Position numbers and translations under genes: made by a program. From Limisphaerales bacterium (GTDB lineage Bacteria; Verrucomicrobiota; Verrucomicrobiia; Limisphaerales; UBA11358), in NCBI GenBank assembly GCA_003134375.1, contig PLAY01000197.1, forward strand, positions 1-39,112: a stretch of DNA of 39,112 nucleotides, read 5' to 3'. The notes beneath the pieces were generated by a model. That model made no database searches and was not told where the DNA came from. It saw only the letters and a program-made list of their open reading frames with translations. Each line of letters starts with the position of its first letter. Position 1 is the stretch's first letter. Shown in pieces: positions 11,398 through 16,837 of this stretch.

Positions 11398-12060
11398 ATG
11401 AAAAAGACATCCGCCATCAACGACCTCCTCAAAGTCATGGCCCGGCTGCGCTCGCCGACGGGCTGTCCGTGGGACCGCGAGCAGAACCATTACACGCTCC
11501 GCCGCCATGCCATCGAGGAGGTTTATGAATTGATTGACGCCATCGAAGCTGGCGACGACCACGAAATGGCCGAGGAACTTGGCGATTTGCTGCTGCAAAT
11601 TGTCTTCCATTGCCAGATGGCGAAGGAACGCGGCGCATTTGATTTTGAGAAGGTCTGCCGGCTGATTGTGGAGAAGCTGGTGCGCCGGCATCCGCACGTT
11701 TTCGGCAAAATCAAGGTCAAGAATGTGGACGAAGTCTGGGTGAACTGGGAAAAAATCAAAAAGGCGGAAAAGCACGGAACCAAACACGCCCGCCATTCAG
11801 CCCTCGACGGTATTCCCAAACATTTGCCCGCCCTGCTCCGTGCCGAAAAGCTGATGAAAAAGGCGCTCAAGGCGAAACTCCCATTGGCTGGTCAAAATTC
11901 CAAACGCCGTCTCGCCAAAACCGCTTTGGCCCGCGAGCTTTTTGATTTGGCGGAACTTGCCCAGGCGCGCGGCTGGTCGGCAGAAGAGCTTTTAAGCGTG
12001 GAGATCAAGCGGCGCGAACGCCGGTTTCGGCAACAGGAACGGCGAAATTTGCAGACCTAA
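11398..12060 (+). CDS. mazG: Nucleoside triphosphate pyrophosphohydrolase MazG
   Basis: 220 residues, somewhat shorter than the 263-residue E. coli protein. MazG hydrolyses NTPs to NMP and pyrophosphate and cleans the nucleotide pool. The N-terminal part is well conserved: SPTGCPWDREQNHYTLRRH, then the metal-binding EEVYELIDAIE and EELGDLLLQIVFH helices, and RRHPHVFG. The second MazG-like region is shorter and more divergent, with Lys/Arg-rich ends. The stop codon directly abuts an inverted-repeat element. Confidence 0.92.
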   Translation: MKKTSAINDLLKVMARLRSPTGCPWDREQNHYTLRRHAIEEVYELIDAIEAGDDHEMAEELGDLLLQIVFHCQMAKERGAFDFEKVCRLIVEKLVRRHPHVFGKIKVKNVDEVWVNWEKIKKAEKHGTKHARHSALDGIPKHLPALLRAEKLMKKALKAKLPLAGQNSKRRLAKTALARELFDLAELAQARGWSAEELLSVEIKRRERRFRQQERRNLQT

Positions 12061-12221
12061 GACGTGTTTTCAAAATGCGGAGTGTGGCCGTCCTTGGCCA
12101 CAGCCATGTTCGCCAACCACACGTTTTCCAAAATTCCATGAGTTCCTGGCTGACGGGAGTTGCTGCGCCCGGGGACGGGCGCACCTCGGCTATGAGCTTT
12201 CGCTGATTTTGAAAACACGTC
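12061..12221. mobile_element. MITE/REP-like element with 16-bp terminal inverted repeats
   Basis: GACGTGTTTTCAAAAT at the left end is perfectly inverted at the right end (12206-12221). Inside are at least two further hairpins, around TGGCCGTCCTTGGCCA and TGCGCCCGGGGACGGGCGCA. The left end begins at the base after the mazG stop codon. No transposase is encoded, so it would depend on one in trans. No convincing target-site duplication is visible. Confidence 0.6.
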
Positions 12222-12236
12222 ATAACCTTTCGCGGA

Positions 12237-12458
12237 CTATTTCTTTTTCCCGGCTTCCGGGCGATATTCCAAAATGTCGGCGGGCTGGCATTCGAGATGG
12301 GCGCAAATGGCTTCGAGCGTGGAGAAACGGATGGCCCTGGCCTTGCCGGTTTTGAGGATGGAAAGGTTTTGCGGCGTGATGTCCACGGCGGCGGCCAGAT
12401 CGTTCAACCGCATTTTCCGCTGGGCGAGAACCACATCCAAATTGACGATGATGGGCAT
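12237..12458 (-). CDS. Small XRE-family regulator, YozG/HTH_26 type
   Basis: 73 residues forming a single helix-turn-helix domain: LAQRKMRLNDLAAAVDITPQ, recognition helix NLSILKTGKARAIRF, then TLEAICAHLECQPADILEY. This is the typical Cro/C1-type small regulator found with DUF2975 membrane proteins. It starts 4 nt after the stop of the last DUF2975 gene, so it is the terminal gene of that unit and probably regulates it. The lysine-rich end (GKKK) is short. Targets cannot be read from the sequence. Confidence 0.85.
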   Translation of the reverse strand: MPIIVNLDVVLAQRKMRLNDLAAAVDITPQNLSILKTGKARAIRFSTLEAICAHLECQPADILEYRPEAGKKK

Positions 12459-12462
12459 AAGC

Positions 12463-12990
12463 TTAAACGGTCAATTCTTGTTCCTCCTGAATTTTCCGGC
12501 CTTCGTCCATGATCCAGGCAATGAAAAGAATTACAAAACCGGTGACGAGATTATGAACCAGGTGAAAGAGAATCATTTGAAGATAACGGACAATTTCGAC
12601 AATCCATGGCGAAGAATTAACGTGTTGAAACCACCCATTGTGAAGTTGACGATGCAGTGCGTCGAAAATGTTTCCGATTCCCATCAACAAGCTGACAATT
12701 CCAATGCATCGAATATAGCGGACGGTAGTGGGAGAGAATAAATCGCCACGGACATAACACGCGAACAGTTTGTATGCGAACCAGCATTCCATGGCGCGAC
12801 CGAGAGATGAAAGATTCAAGTAAAACGACAGCGAAGGATGCACTCCTGCCAGGGTAATGCCGTAGCCGAGTATGCCGATAAAACCAAAAATCACCGCAGA
12901 GGCGAAAAAGACGATTCTTAAAAATGTGCTGATTTTTTGGATCCGACTCAACAGGGAGTTGACCTTCAGAGAAATTTCATTCACATTCAT
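12463..12990 (-). CDS. DUF2975 membrane protein, paralogue 1 (last of four)
   Basis: 175 residues with about four transmembrane segments (roughly 22-45, 58-80, 95-115, 140-165). It starts MNVNEISLKVNSLL and ends with the tail IAWIMDEGRKIQEEQELTV, the conserved DUF2975 C-terminus. The family is of unknown function and is commonly paired with a YozG-type regulator, as here. Gene spacing is 21 nt from the preceding paralogue and 4 nt to the regulator. No clear Shine-Dalgarno precedes the ATG. Confidence 0.8.
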   Translation of the reverse strand: MNVNEISLKVNSLLSRIQKISTFLRIVFFASAVIFGFIGILGYGITLAGVHPSLSFYLNLSSLGRAMECWFAYKLFACYVRGDLFSPTTVRYIRCIGIVSLLMGIGNIFDALHRQLHNGWFQHVNSSPWIVEIVRYLQMILFHLVHNLVTGFVILFIAWIMDEGRKIQEEQELTV

Positions 12991-13011
12991 AAATTTGAAA
13001 AGCTGATTTGG

Positions 13012-13548
13012 TTAAACGGTCAATTCCTGTTCCTCCTGAATCTTCCGGCCCTCGTCCATGACCTTGGCGATAAAAATGATGGCGAGGCCGGGAACCACAT
13101 TGAAAAAAATCTGGATACAAACTTCGATCAGCGGAACCGAAATCGCCAGACCCATGGGCACTGAAGCGCCAGCCTGATAAATCTCCTTCACGAGCATCAG
13201 CATGTGGATGCCGCCATTCACGATTCCCACCAGCACCGTACCGATGCCCAGCCAGCGGATGCGGCACACGACCGTCGGGGCGAAGAGGTTGCCGCTGGCG
13301 TAGGCGGAGAAAAGTTGGTAGGCAAACCAACTGGTCACGGCATAACCAAAGTAAGAAAGATTGAGGGTGCAATTATGCATTACAATGGGATTTAGGTTGC
13401 CCATCCACATCATCGTGACCACCGAGAGGATTCCTATGGCCCCAAAGATGATGGCGGCAATCAGGAAGATTATTTTAAAGGTCCGGCTGGCCGCCATGAT
13501 TTGCTTCAAACGGGCATTGGCTTTGGGAGACATTTCATTCGCATTCAT
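13012..13548 (-). CDS. DUF2975 membrane protein, paralogue 2
   Basis: 178 residues with the same plan as its neighbours: N-terminus MNANEMSPKANARLKQI, four predicted membrane spans, an arginine between the second and third spans (CRIRWLG), and the C-terminal MDEGRKIQEEQELTV. The start was chosen because the sequence around it, CAAATTTATGAA, is shared by the neighbouring paralogues. The middle of the protein diverges strongly from the other copies while both ends are conserved. Confidence 0.8.
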   Translation of the reverse strand: MNANEMSPKANARLKQIMAASRTFKIIFLIAAIIFGAIGILSVVTMMWMGNLNPIVMHNCTLNLSYFGYAVTSWFAYQLFSAYASGNLFAPTVVCRIRWLGIGTVLVGIVNGGIHMLMLVKEIYQAGASVPMGLAISVPLIEVCIQIFFNVVPGLAIIFIAKVMDEGRKIQEEQELTV

Positions 13549-13561
13549 AAATTTGGTTTGG

Positions 13562-14188
13562 TTAGACCGTCAGTTCCTGTTCCTCCTGAATCTTCCGGCC
13601 CTCGTCCATGATCCAGGCGATCAGGACGATGACAATTCCGGCAAAAAGCAGTCCGAAATCAATGCCCGTGCCAAAATCAAAGGAGAAGAAGCCCATTTGA
13701 TAGTGTGTGACTGTGACCTCCCTTAAGGTAACTCCGGGCGGCAAAGTTTTGAGGTGGTCCAGTATGGATTGAATTGACGGAAGTGGGTGTTGCTGAAGTA
13801 AGATGTGAATGACCGACTGAAGCATCCAACCCACCGCGCACAATAACCCCAAAAGCTTTATGCAACGGATCGTCTCAGCTGCAAAGATCAAGCCGCGCTC
13901 ATAAAAGTGAAACAGCCTCGCCAGCTTCCAATACCAAACACAAAGAACACCCTGTAAAATAATCAGGAGGATTTCGCGCGTAAGAGTATCGAAATCTCTT
14001 TGTCGGAATAAGCCTGAGAGATCCAACAACATAAGCCAAATTGTGAAAACGAAAAAGCAAAACACAATAAATCTGGCAATCCGGCTGACGATTTTGATTC
14101 GACTCATCCGCGCTCTGGCAATCCGGCTGACGATTTTGATTCGACTCATCCGCGCGTTGGCCTTCGGAGAAATTTCATTCGCTCTCAT
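13562..14188 (-). CDS. DUF2975 membrane protein, paralogue 3, with internal duplication
   Basis: 208 residues from the ATG of MRANEISPKANARM. A longer frame exists upstream, but it runs into the preceding gene in another frame. The protein keeps the four-span plan and the tail IAWIMDEGRKIQEEQELTV. It carries an exact in-frame tandem duplication of 14 residues (ARMSRIKIVSRIAR twice) just before the first membrane span, which lengthens the positively charged N-terminal segment. The spacing to paralogue 2 is 13 nt. Confidence 0.78.
   Translation of the reverse strand: MRANEISPKANARMSRIKIVSRIARARMSRIKIVSRIARFIVFCFFVFTIWLMLLDLSGLFRQRDFDTLTREILLIILQGVLCVWYWKLARLFHFYERGLIFAAETIRCIKLLGLLCAVGWMLQSVIHILLQQHPLPSIQSILDHLKTLPPGVTLREVTVTHYQMGFFSFDFGTGIDFGLLFAGIVIVLIAWIMDEGRKIQEEQELTV
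14072..14155. repeat. 42-bp perfect tandem duplication inside DUF2975 paralogue 3
   Basis: Two identical 42-bp copies (14072-14113 and 14114-14155) encode the repeated 14-residue segment. The complete lack of divergence points to a recent slippage or unequal-crossover event. The unit is a multiple of three, so the frame is kept. Confidence 0.9.
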
Positions 14189-14208
14189 AAATTTGAAAAA
14201 CGGTCTGG

Positions 14209-14739
14209 TTAAACAGTGAGTTCCTGTTCCTCCTGAATCTTCCGGCCTTCGTCCATGATCCAGGCGACGATGTAAATGGCTCCACCAACGACAATCCACG
14301 GAGAAACAAATCCCTCCAGCAGCACCCACGGAAAAATGAATCCTCCTAGATAGATAACATTGGCAGCGACGGCAAGTATGCCGTAACCCACCAGATAACC
14401 TCCCAGTTTTTTCATTTCCGAAACATTTGCCCCGGAAAAAATCGCTCCTTTTTCATACAGGCACAACAAACGGTAGAAAGAAATGACACCAAGAAGATAA
14501 ACAGCCGTTCCGGTCGCCCAGAGCAAATACATCGGCTTGGGAATGTCCAAAGTACTGGCATAGGCATGATTGAAGATTGAAATCGTGCCGGACGCCGAGT
14601 GGATGTTTTTCAGGTTGAAAGCCAGAGCGCACAGTGGCGCAACAAAGTAAAAAAACACGCAGACCTTCAGGATATGACTGATTTTTTGAATCCGATTCAA
14701 GCGAGGACTGGCTTTGGGAGAAATTTCATTCGTATTCAT
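14209..14739 (-). CDS. DUF2975 membrane protein, paralogue 4 (first of the array)
   Basis: 176 residues from MNTNEISPKASPRLNRIQKI. An upstream in-frame ATG exists, but the family start aligns with this one. Four membrane spans are predicted, and the tail VAWIMDEGRKIQEEQELTV closes the protein. Being first in the transcription direction, it would be served by a promoter in the divergent gap before rplU. It lies 20 nt upstream of paralogue 3. The function of the family is unknown. Confidence 0.8.
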   Translation of the reverse strand: MNTNEISPKASPRLNRIQKISHILKVCVFFYFVAPLCALAFNLKNIHSASGTISIFNHAYASTLDIPKPMYLLWATGTAVYLLGVISFYRLLCLYEKGAIFSGANVSEMKKLGGYLVGYGILAVAANVIYLGGFIFPWVLLEGFVSPWIVVGGAIYIVAWIMDEGRKIQEEQELTV

Positions 14740-14779
14740 GGCGCAAGGATTACACCCATCAACTCCGTTAGTCAAGCAT

Positions 14780-14802
14780 TTTTTATTGATAAACGATAAA
14801 TA
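14780..14802. promoter_or_regulatory. Candidate operator/promoter region of the DUF2975 array
   Basis: On the minus strand an AT-rich stretch contains two adjacent near-identical heptamers (TTTATCG TTTATCA), followed by TTGACT about 36 bp before the first DUF2975 start. A TTGACT-17 bp-TAATCC promoter would place transcription very near the start codon. The direct repeat is a candidate site for the array's own XRE regulator; this is an inference. Confidence 0.25.
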
Positions 14803-15628: not shown

Positions 15629-16837
15629 ATGTTTGTTGACGAAATAAAAATCTACGCGAGCGCGGGGCACGGCGGCAAAGGCTGCATTGCGTTCCATCGC
15701 GAGGCTTACATCGCCAAGGGCGGACCGAGCGGCGGCAACGGCGGACGCGGCGGCAGTGTGATCTTGCAGGCCGACCACGACCTCAACAATCTCATCGCCC
15801 AGTATTATCAGCCACGCCTCATCGCCCCGGCAGGCGAGCCGGGCTTCGGCAAGGGCATGGACGGCCACGCGGGCAAGGACCTCATCGTCAAAGTGCCGTG
15901 CGGCACGCTGGTGTGGCAGTTGCCGTCAGTGACAAAACCGGCGGGAGATTTCGAGGACGAGCCGTCTTCGTTACACTCCGCCGCGCCAAGGGACGAGGAC
16001 GAGGACGAAAAGCCGACGCTCAAAACCAGTGCGAGCAAACGGCCGTTGATTCGCAGTGCCTGCGGCGGGCAGGCGCAGGAAATTGATTTGAGCAAGGAAG
16101 ATGCTGGAGAATTTTCCGTCGGCACATCACCCAAAGGCGAACTGGTCACCGACCTTACCCAGCACGGCCAGCAATTTGTTTTGTGCAAAGGCGGTCGTGG
16201 CGGATTGGGCAACCGGAACTTTGCGACGGCGGCGCGTCAGACGCCGCGTTTCGCCCAGCCGGGGGAGCCGGGCGAGGAAGGCGATTTTCTTTTCGAGCTG
16301 CGCATCATGGCTGAAGTCGGGCTGGTCGGCTATCCCAACGCCGGCAAGTCCACCCTGCTCACGGCCATTTCCAAGGCGCGCCCGAAAGTCGCGCCGTATC
16401 CGTTCACCACGCTCCACCCGCAAATCGGCATCGTGGAATATGCCGACTGGCACCGGCTCACGGTTTGCGACGTGCCGGGTTTGATTGAAGGTGCGCACAA
16501 AAACGTCGGCCTCGGCCACGAGTTTCTGCGCCACATTGAGCGCTGCAAAATCCTGGTGCTGCTGCTCGACATGGCGGGCACGGACAACCGCGCGCCGTGG
16601 GACGATTACAAACAATTGCTGAAGGAACTGGAACTTTATGATCCGGCGCTGCTTGAAAAACCGCGCCTGGTGGTGGCGAACAAAATGGACGAGGCGGCAG
16701 CCGAGAAAAACTTGAAGCAGTTCAAAAAGAAGATTCGCAAAGTTTCGTTGCTGCCCATCTCCGCCGCATTTGATCAGGGCGTTGATAAATTCAAGAAGAC
16801 CATTCGGGAAGCGGTCAAGAAGGCGTCTTCAACGTAG
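15629..16837 (+). CDS. obgE: GTPase Obg with an unusual insertion in the Obg fold
   Basis: 402 residues (E. coli has 390, but with a different C-terminal extension). Obg is a large-subunit assembly and stress GTPase. The glycine-rich Obg domain starts MFVDEIKIYASAGHGGKGC and resumes at GELVTDLTQHGQQFVLCKGGRGGLGN. Between them, residues about 98-170 form an extra acidic, low-complexity segment (RDEDEDEK) absent from the usual VPxGT-to-HGQ loop. The GTPase domain has the P-loop GYPNAGKS (234-241), the switch segment PFTTLHPQ, DVPGLIEGAHKNVGLG and NKMD. The stop codon TAG is the first part of a palindromic repeat. Confidence 0.93.
   Translation: MFVDEIKIYASAGHGGKGCIAFHREAYIAKGGPSGGNGGRGGSVILQADHDLNNLIAQYYQPRLIAPAGEPGFGKGMDGHAGKDLIVKVPCGTLVWQLPSVTKPAGDFEDEPSSLHSAAPRDEDEDEKPTLKTSASKRPLIRSACGGQAQEIDLSKEDAGEFSVGTSPKGELVTDLTQHGQQFVLCKGGRGGLGNRNFATAARQTPRFAQPGEPGEEGDFLFELRIMAEVGLVGYPNAGKSTLLTAISKARPKVAPYPFTTLHPQIGIVEYADWHRLTVCDVPGLIEGAHKNVGLGHEFLRHIERCKILVLLLDMAGTDNRAPWDDYKQLLKELELYDPALLEKPRLVVANKMDEAAAEKNLKQFKKKIRKVSLLPISAAFDQGVDKFKKTIREAVKKASST

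Follow-up and report, generated by a model that had tools for sequence, protein, structure and literature searches.

The window, by which we mean the whole 39,112-nucleotide (nt) stretch of DNA analysed, belongs to an uncultured Verrucomicrobia bacterium (Limisphaerales) whose assembly comprises 4.16 Mb and is ~93% complete by estimate. It carries an array of four DUF2975 membrane genes arranged head to tail and followed by one YozG-type (HTH_26) regulator gene, all on the minus strand and preceded by a predicted operator and promoter, as listed below (L and G numbers are our handles for loci and genomes).

14783..14799, minus strand: predicted operator 1, a 17-bp dyad, TTATCGTTTATCAATAA, with the consensus TTATCG-N5-CGATAA (conservation, pattern searches)
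14762..14778, minus strand: predicted second site, operator-like but weak, 21 bp downstream of operator 1; it overlaps the -35 box (6/12 positions)
14747..14775, minus strand: predicted promoter, with -35 TTGACT at 14775-14770, 17 nt, and -10 TAATCC at 14752-14747 (composite pattern)
14209..14739, minus strand: DUF2975 membrane protein copy 1, 176 amino acids (PF11188; orthologues L045_1 and L038_1)
13562..14188, minus strand: DUF2975 membrane protein copy 2, 208 amino acids (PF11188; in a clade with L034_2 and L036_1)
13012..13548, minus strand: DUF2975 membrane protein copy 3, 178 amino acids (PF11188; in a clade with copy 4, L035_2, L035_3 and L053_2)
12463..12990, minus strand: DUF2975 membrane protein copy 4, 175 amino acids (PF11188; AlphaFold2 model)
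12237..12458, minus strand: YozG-type HTH_26 regulator, 73 amino acids (PF13443; with Ala42 as predicted lock for the tails)

All four membrane proteins exceeded the PF11188 cut-off of 27 bits (28.7-44.2 bits, E 2e-11 to 1e-6), the regulator exceeded the PF13443 cut-off of 22 bits (80.1 bits, E 1e-22), and no DUF2975 match beyond these four was found in the window assembly (E<=0.001). The gaps between the genes are so short (13-21 nt between membrane genes and 4 nt ahead of the regulator) that a single operon is predicted, and the spacer CAAATTTATGA was present at all three junctions between membrane genes (3/3). The original prediction, made from the letters of this DNA, had described four DUF2975 genes with one YozG-type regulator and similar spacers as a multi-copy version of a known pair, presumably the one that goes by the names YoaS and YozG; the coordinates, the Pfam matches and the junctions bear this out.

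The four window copies all end in EEQELTV, and their last 16 residues were 15-16/16 identical in every pair of copies, a shared C-terminus that is a family-wide motif and not peculiar to this array. An acidic tail ending in V, I or F was found in 155 of the 156 DUF2975 proteins whose locus includes an HTH_26 gene (window rows included), counted by a rule (a V, I or F end behind an acidic residue) that was set after looking at the data and with L031, a fragment-like match, excluded beforehand; the sole exception, L139_558, is the first member of a tandem pair. Eight DUF2975 rows had no HTH_26 gene: one (L053_1) was cut by a contig end and the other seven had no tail, all of these regulator-less, tail-less proteins falling in one clade (support 85). 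A Verrucomicrobiota clade (L064, L065, L066, L110, L111, L112 and L116) was found without neighbouring regulator, operator-like site or tail. On a Klebsiella grimontii plasmid (L299, 1501-1872), an unannotated DUF2975-like frame without the usual tail end adjoins an annotated helix-turn-helix (HTH) gene.

Covariation between the tail and the regulator was measured in 130 pairs, each formed by a regulator and its adjacent DUF2975 protein, as corrected mutual information over 29,403 column pairs. Second in rank among these stood regulator residue 42 with the next-to-last residue of the tail (T174 in copy 4); the two agreed in 130/130 pairs, with T, V or L (n = 93) going with Ala42, and F, I, M or Y (n = 37) with Gly42. 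The nine best covariation partners of the tail residue all lie in the regulator, residues 34, 40 and 46 being among its further partners. The rule was fixed in writing before it was tested on 59 further pairs, with 19 already-used genus loci excluded, and it was kept in 55 of them (T 27/27 Ala, V 4/4 Ala, F 11/11 Gly, I 13 Gly and 3 Ala); the departures were L253, L256 and L291 (I with Ala) and L299, which has Ala and no tail. In L261, T occurs with Leu34 and Val40 yet with Ala42, so that residue 42 is the position that tracks the tail there. Both pair classes were carried by twelve genomes (G805, G904, G1041, G1078, G1090, G1094, G1106, G1108, G1121, G1136, G1326 and G1369), each pair being matched within itself. 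Within the genus set, L059 apart, 45/45 complete array members end in TV and 25/25 regulators have Ala42, a uniform T key and Ala lock that fits the need of several receptors on one repressor. On the best trees, the 130 pairs required 11 switches (DUF2975 tree) or 5 (joint tree), and all 189 rows showed 13 tail changes and 11 residue-42 changes. A second, weaker covarying patch joins DUF2975 residues 78, 79, 140 and 161 with regulator residues 9, 12 and 15, and may mark another contact site, on helix 1 of the regulator.

Upstream of the first gene the order is TTATCGTTTATCAATAA, 7 nt, TTGACT, 17 nt, TAATCC, 7 nt and ATG, and a leaderless transcript is predicted because only 7 nt separate the -10 box from the ATG. 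The role of TTATCG-N5-CGATAA as operator for the HTH_26 regulator is proposed from its conservation. A composite pattern (operator-N7-TTGAC-N17-TAnnnT), whose consensus was derived from these same loci, was significant (p<0.01, simple region shuffles) before the first gene in 22 of the 24 genus arrays with enough upstream sequence (exceptions L043 and L055; L044 and L057, cut by contig ends, were left out of the count), in 27/32 rows of the whole set, in 0/3 regulator-less rows (L064-L066) and before 0/20 internal array genes. A degenerate operator-promoter pattern yielded 14 matches in the 49 genus genomes, one per genome and all just upstream of DUF2975 arrays, with no match in the array-less genus genomes and 0 in the reversed control. 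The window genome held a single operator site, both by the degenerate pattern and by the 17-mer with <=2 mismatches.

In other Verrucomicrobiota, Desulfobacterota and Pseudomonadota a matching site was detected at 42/111 DUF2975 rows (shuffle p<=0.01), and nine of ten plasmid loci (Bacillota, Bacteroidota and one Klebsiella) had a site of >=10/12 positions, scored without a shuffle test. The strict palindrome WTATCGN5CGATAW occurred in 20/103 upstream regions with a regulator (45 kb) outside the genus and order set, as against 4 matches in 265 kb of other sequence, and was rarer within that set (3/30, plus L053) because the right half there is mostly CAATAA. The second site lies 21 bp, that is, two helical turns, from the first; its mean score was 6.75/12 in the genus and order set (n = 24; background 3.78) and 5.79/12 elsewhere (n = 73; background 3.67), part of the score coming from the -35 TTGAC itself, and it was clearer in some Desulfobacterota (up to 11/12 positions).

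On balance we lean towards a mechanism in which the common tail of the four DUF2975 proteins keeps one YozG-type autorepressor bound at the membrane, each of four different membrane signals then being enough to release the array promoter. The covariation makes it likely that the tail docks onto the regulator; its last residues would enter a pocket (residues 34, 40, 42 and 46) adjoining the recognition helix, and docking would remove the regulator from DNA. With modest confidence, the regulator may be taken as an autorepressor of the array promoter, repression being suggested by the second, weaker operator copy that overlaps the -35 box. Different inputs would be sensed by the membrane and outer parts, in which the copies have diverged, and the membrane proteins themselves would serve as the output, given that the genome showed no further site of this kind at the stringency applied. 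The account with the best support is a multi-sensor variant of the DUF2975-YozG switch; by analogy, the array would most likely form an SdpI/SdpR-like circuit with four sensors for one lock. More tentatively, as a serious proposal that we hold with some doubt, there may be a family-wide code in which the last residues of DUF2975 proteins are the key and residue 42 of YozG-type regulators the lock; orthogonal classes, two at the least (T/V with Ala, F/M/Y with Gly), would coexist in one cell. The Limisphaerales arrays would then be a plug-in sensor board, on which membrane cassettes from different clades change places behind a single promoter, all of them keeping the key to one repressor.

The original prediction had also described near-identical ends and a diverged membrane middle. 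Near-identity held for the C-terminus and failed for the N-terminus, where the first 24 residues were merely similar (10-15/24 identical between window copies), and the divergence of the middle was confirmed, the transmembrane (TM) regions TM1, TM2 and TM3 being 5-25% identical in 5/6 copy pairs and 32-48% identical between copies 3 and 4. Conservation in the genus set came to 0.82 (tail), 0.52 (middle loop), 0.45 (N-terminus), 0.36, 0.38, 0.35 and 0.47 (TM1-TM4, in that order), and 0.27 and 0.36 (outer loops); the predicted cytoplasmic tail and middle loop are the most conserved parts, which we count in favour of sequestration by the tail. Hydropathy and charges point to a topology with both ends inside. 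For copy 4, AlphaFold2 gave a model of four long helices (predicted local distance difference test score, pLDDT, 81.7); the last of them reaches residue 174 and is prolonged by the tail, and a fold comparison of copy 4 with the PDB gave no match at E<=0.001. In the model of the regulator (pLDDT 73.7), helix 3 (29-37) and helix 4 (45-55) are joined by a loop that contains residue 42; compared with solved structures by sequence, the regulator had three matches, all weak HTH. Several DUF2975 proteins of the genus that come first in an array or stand alone (in L046, L051, L053, L058 and others) were recognised by eye to have an additional hydrophobic N-terminal segment of ~20-30 residues. Within copy 2, an exact 42-bp tandem duplication (14072-14155) doubles 14 residues of the predicted cytoplasmic N-terminus.

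In a tree built from 48 DUF2975 proteins, 46 of them from the genus and 2 from the order, L045_1 and L038_1 grouped with copy 1, L034_2 and L036_1 with copy 2, and L035_2, L035_3 and L053_2 with copies 3 and 4, all with strong branch support. Because the copies fall in three clades common to other arrays, the window array is better seen as a mix of older lineages than as fresh duplicates, and a recent origin by the repeated duplication first proposed for it finds no support, these clades being present in other genomes. L034 and L036 have one sister pair at positions 2 and 1, indicating that gene order differs between them, and another at position 3, their remaining genes lying in one larger clade. 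Eight database proteins start with an apparent translated promoter, which reveals the type in first place there: three were copy-1-like, two copy-2-like, one copy-3-like and two copy-4-like, one of the last being 83% identical to copy 4, the last membrane gene in the window. Since first-gene types and order vary between arrays, the same promoter seems to stand ahead of different cassettes.

The ratio of nonsynonymous to synonymous substitution rates (dN/dS) was determined by region in 11 orthologue pairs, among which copy 1 was the sole window copy with orthologues. It was below 1 wherever computable, lending no support to the selection for diversity that had been suggested, and ranged over 0.04-0.28 in the cytoplasmic parts and 0.15-0.55 in the membrane and outer parts (10/11 pairs computable in each case), the membrane part exceeding the cytoplasmic one in seven of the nine pairs having both values; dS was incomputable for one region of two pairs and >1 in several others. 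Positive selection was rejected, no sign of it being seen in the 11 pairs. Array-wide gene conversion of the tails was likewise rejected: synonymous codon identity was 0.62 within and 0.57 between arrays, a difference that was not significant (the within-array value was reached in 147/2000 label shuffles). The 5' ends of the internal window genes were array-specific, with a mean of 47.7/70 nt vs 26.3 between arrays (3/969 triples as high), and three other three-copy arrays did not show this (20, 33 and 18 of 70).

A DUF2975 gene was present in 26 of the 49 genus genomes and absent from 23, so that the arrays are patchily distributed within the genus. The 27 genus loci had four copies (the window), three (L034, L035 and L036), two (11 loci) or one (12 loci), confirming the expectation that copy number would vary among relatives; these sizes are minima, some loci starting or stopping at contig ends, and L053 and L057, at contig ends of one genome, may be a single array of three. 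One HTH_26 gene was found in 26/27 genus loci, the exception being L053, which is cut by a contig end. The window array sits between mazG and rplU-rpmA-obgE, and L045 has matching flanks. Among the 26 other genus loci, several of them cut by contig ends, a Wzy_C gene lay on the regulator side in 15, an M29-type peptidase gene on the promoter side in 11, and both in 8. The Wzy_C locus was examined in 13 zero-copy genomes: in six (L304, L305, L310, L317, L323 and L328) the peptidase and Wzy_C genes were 84-384 bp apart, representing empty array sites, and in the remaining seven the peptidase gene was not within the 0.9-1.5 kb stretch examined. In a sample of the phylum, 14/386 genomes besides G000 had a match, one apiece, and adjacent arrays outside the genus had at most two copies in the genomes searched (G661, G697, G741, G1161 and G1369). 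A DUF2975 gene with a YozG-type regulator was seen in loci of Verrucomicrobiota, Desulfobacterota, Pseudomonadota, Bacillota and Bacteroidota. The single-copy genus locus L059 (G024) holds a different DUF2975-HTH pair, with the tail KSENDLTV, that is nearer to Bacteroidota and Bacillota pairs, which suggests a gain by horizontal transfer.

Several results weigh against sequestration of a repressor by a tail code. The two residue classes were defined after inspection of the 130 pairs, and Ile at the tail pairs with both Gly and Ala in the later rows. Supported branches force only 1 switch and allow 3 independent pairs, of which 1 follows the rule and 2 show no residue-42 difference; independent-pairs sign tests were not significant, there being too few well-supported switches, part of the covariation may come from shared ancestry, and some later rows are near-copies. 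The tail-less clade has modest support and is perhaps one event. The degenerate pattern matched just 14 of the 26 DUF2975-bearing genus genomes, leaving 12 without a match at that stringency, and 69/111 rows outside the genus set, including 4 regulator-less rows, had no significant site. Conservation tracks topology only partly, the N-terminus (0.45) not being above TM4 (0.47), and dN/dS shows no drive toward diversification of the sensor parts. The sign of regulation is a prediction, and the strong genus dyad upstream of the -35 box would also fit an activator.

In such a scheme the regulator would be an activator bound upstream of the -35 box and the DUF2975 proteins anti-activators, in agreement with the strong dyad ending exactly 7 nt before TTGAY in 19 of the 23 sites scoring >=10 in the genus and order set, a spacing that is also the peak elsewhere (16/61). 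The 7-nt spacing is, however, explicable by the second operator-like copy 21 bp off, which overlaps the -35 box and is clear in several Desulfobacterota, and in Bacillota plasmid loci the dyad itself appears by eye to cover the -35 box; we regard activation as unlikely, although deserving of consideration.

Equally doubtful, in our judgement, is an immunity or resistance array in which the membrane proteins each counter a separate membrane-active compound or competitor toxin, with the regulator doing no more than keep expression low. Its precedents, as given in the accessible text of the sources, are SdpI/SdpR (PMC1626106), the DUF2975 gene cppC with the HTH gene cppD in the pentaminomycin nonribosomal peptide synthetase (NRPS) cluster of Streptomyces cacaoi (PMC7827011) and a reported enrichment of PF13443 near class II lanthipeptide clusters (PMC12715929), and the patchy presence and variable copy number would suit it. 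Against it, none of the five window neighbours scanned (a kinase with a PUA domain, mazG, L21, L27 and obgE) is a toxin or producer gene, dN/dS is below 1, and PADLOC-DB gave no match for the four membrane proteins, on which ground a defence system was rejected. The regulator had one weak HTH match there (E 0.0009). Immunity or resistance would be compatible with the sequestration model, as its output.

Redundancy of the four copies, or their assembly into a hetero-oligomer, with copy number varying neutrally, is quite improbable: the range of 1-4 copies per genus locus and the 23/49 genomes with none would agree with it, but distinct clades are retained across species under purifying selection. 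Least probable of all is a toxin-antitoxin module, with the membrane proteins as toxins and the tail-binding Xre protein as antitoxin, for although YoaS-like + Xre (32 cases) stands in the table of adjacent pairs of Makarova et al. 2009 (PMC2701414), and an autoregulated operon and tail-regulator covariation would fit too, the accessible part of that paper puts aside Xre + membrane-protein pairs, no type II system with a membrane component being known then, four toxins to one distal antitoxin would be odd, and Verrucomicrobiota retain regulator-less DUF2975 genes in which the tail is gone and the remaining frame is open.

Sequestration of an autorepressor at the membrane has a parallel in Bacillus subtilis, where, according to the available text, the membrane protein SdpI sequesters SdpR, the autorepressor controlling the operon of the membrane protein itself (PMC1626106). 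The window array would by analogy work likewise, its membrane proteins sequestering the autorepressor of their own operon; it differs in having an Xre-type regulator, four membrane partners and no SdpC-like gene among the neighbours scanned. SdpR is ArsR-like. The Pfam scan of the window proteins gave no match to the SdpI family for the four copies, which matched DUF2975 only, plus a weak sub-cut-off match of copy 4 to a plant-virus family. YoaS-YozG type pairs resemble the window in their families (PF11188, PF13443), in the regulator directly downstream and in the tail, and many single-copy pairs in other phyla have operator-like sites similar to that of the window; they differ in that the window has four membrane genes per regulator, the largest adjacent array outside the genus having two. 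In the accessible text of Makarova et al. 2009, YoaS-like + Xre is among the recurrent adjacent pairs listed as candidate toxin-antitoxin systems and set aside by the authors (PMC2701414).

A full-text literature search of partial coverage on DUF2975 and YozG/YoaS turned up no functional study of the pair, and nothing on tail sequestration of an Xre regulator, subscription literature lying mostly outside its reach. A YozG-subfamily regulator is discussed in a restriction-modification system in the accessible text of PMC12376442, and the operator, the tail and the covariation are not described in the accessible portions of PMC2701414, PMC4326333, PMC12376442, PMC7827011, PMC12715929 and PMC1626106. 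The predicted operator, the tail-regulator linkage and the residue-42 covariation are what is new here. The DUF2975-YozG pair is widespread yet little studied, and the operator, the tail and the residue-42 code make this uncharacterised pair directly testable; the arrays would offer natural switches that combine several inputs, one output and interchangeable sensors.

Two features were noted beside the array. Between mazG and the regulator, 167 bp (12058-12224) are flanked by 19-nt inverted repeats that are 95% complementary; this stretch could be a mobile or hairpin element, and neither the window nor the loci examined from other genomes contained a second copy, the rest of its own genome lying outside the search. 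On the other side, the obgE frame (15629-16837) matches GTP1_OBG in two separate stretches, which suggests an insertion within the Obg domain of the window obgE.

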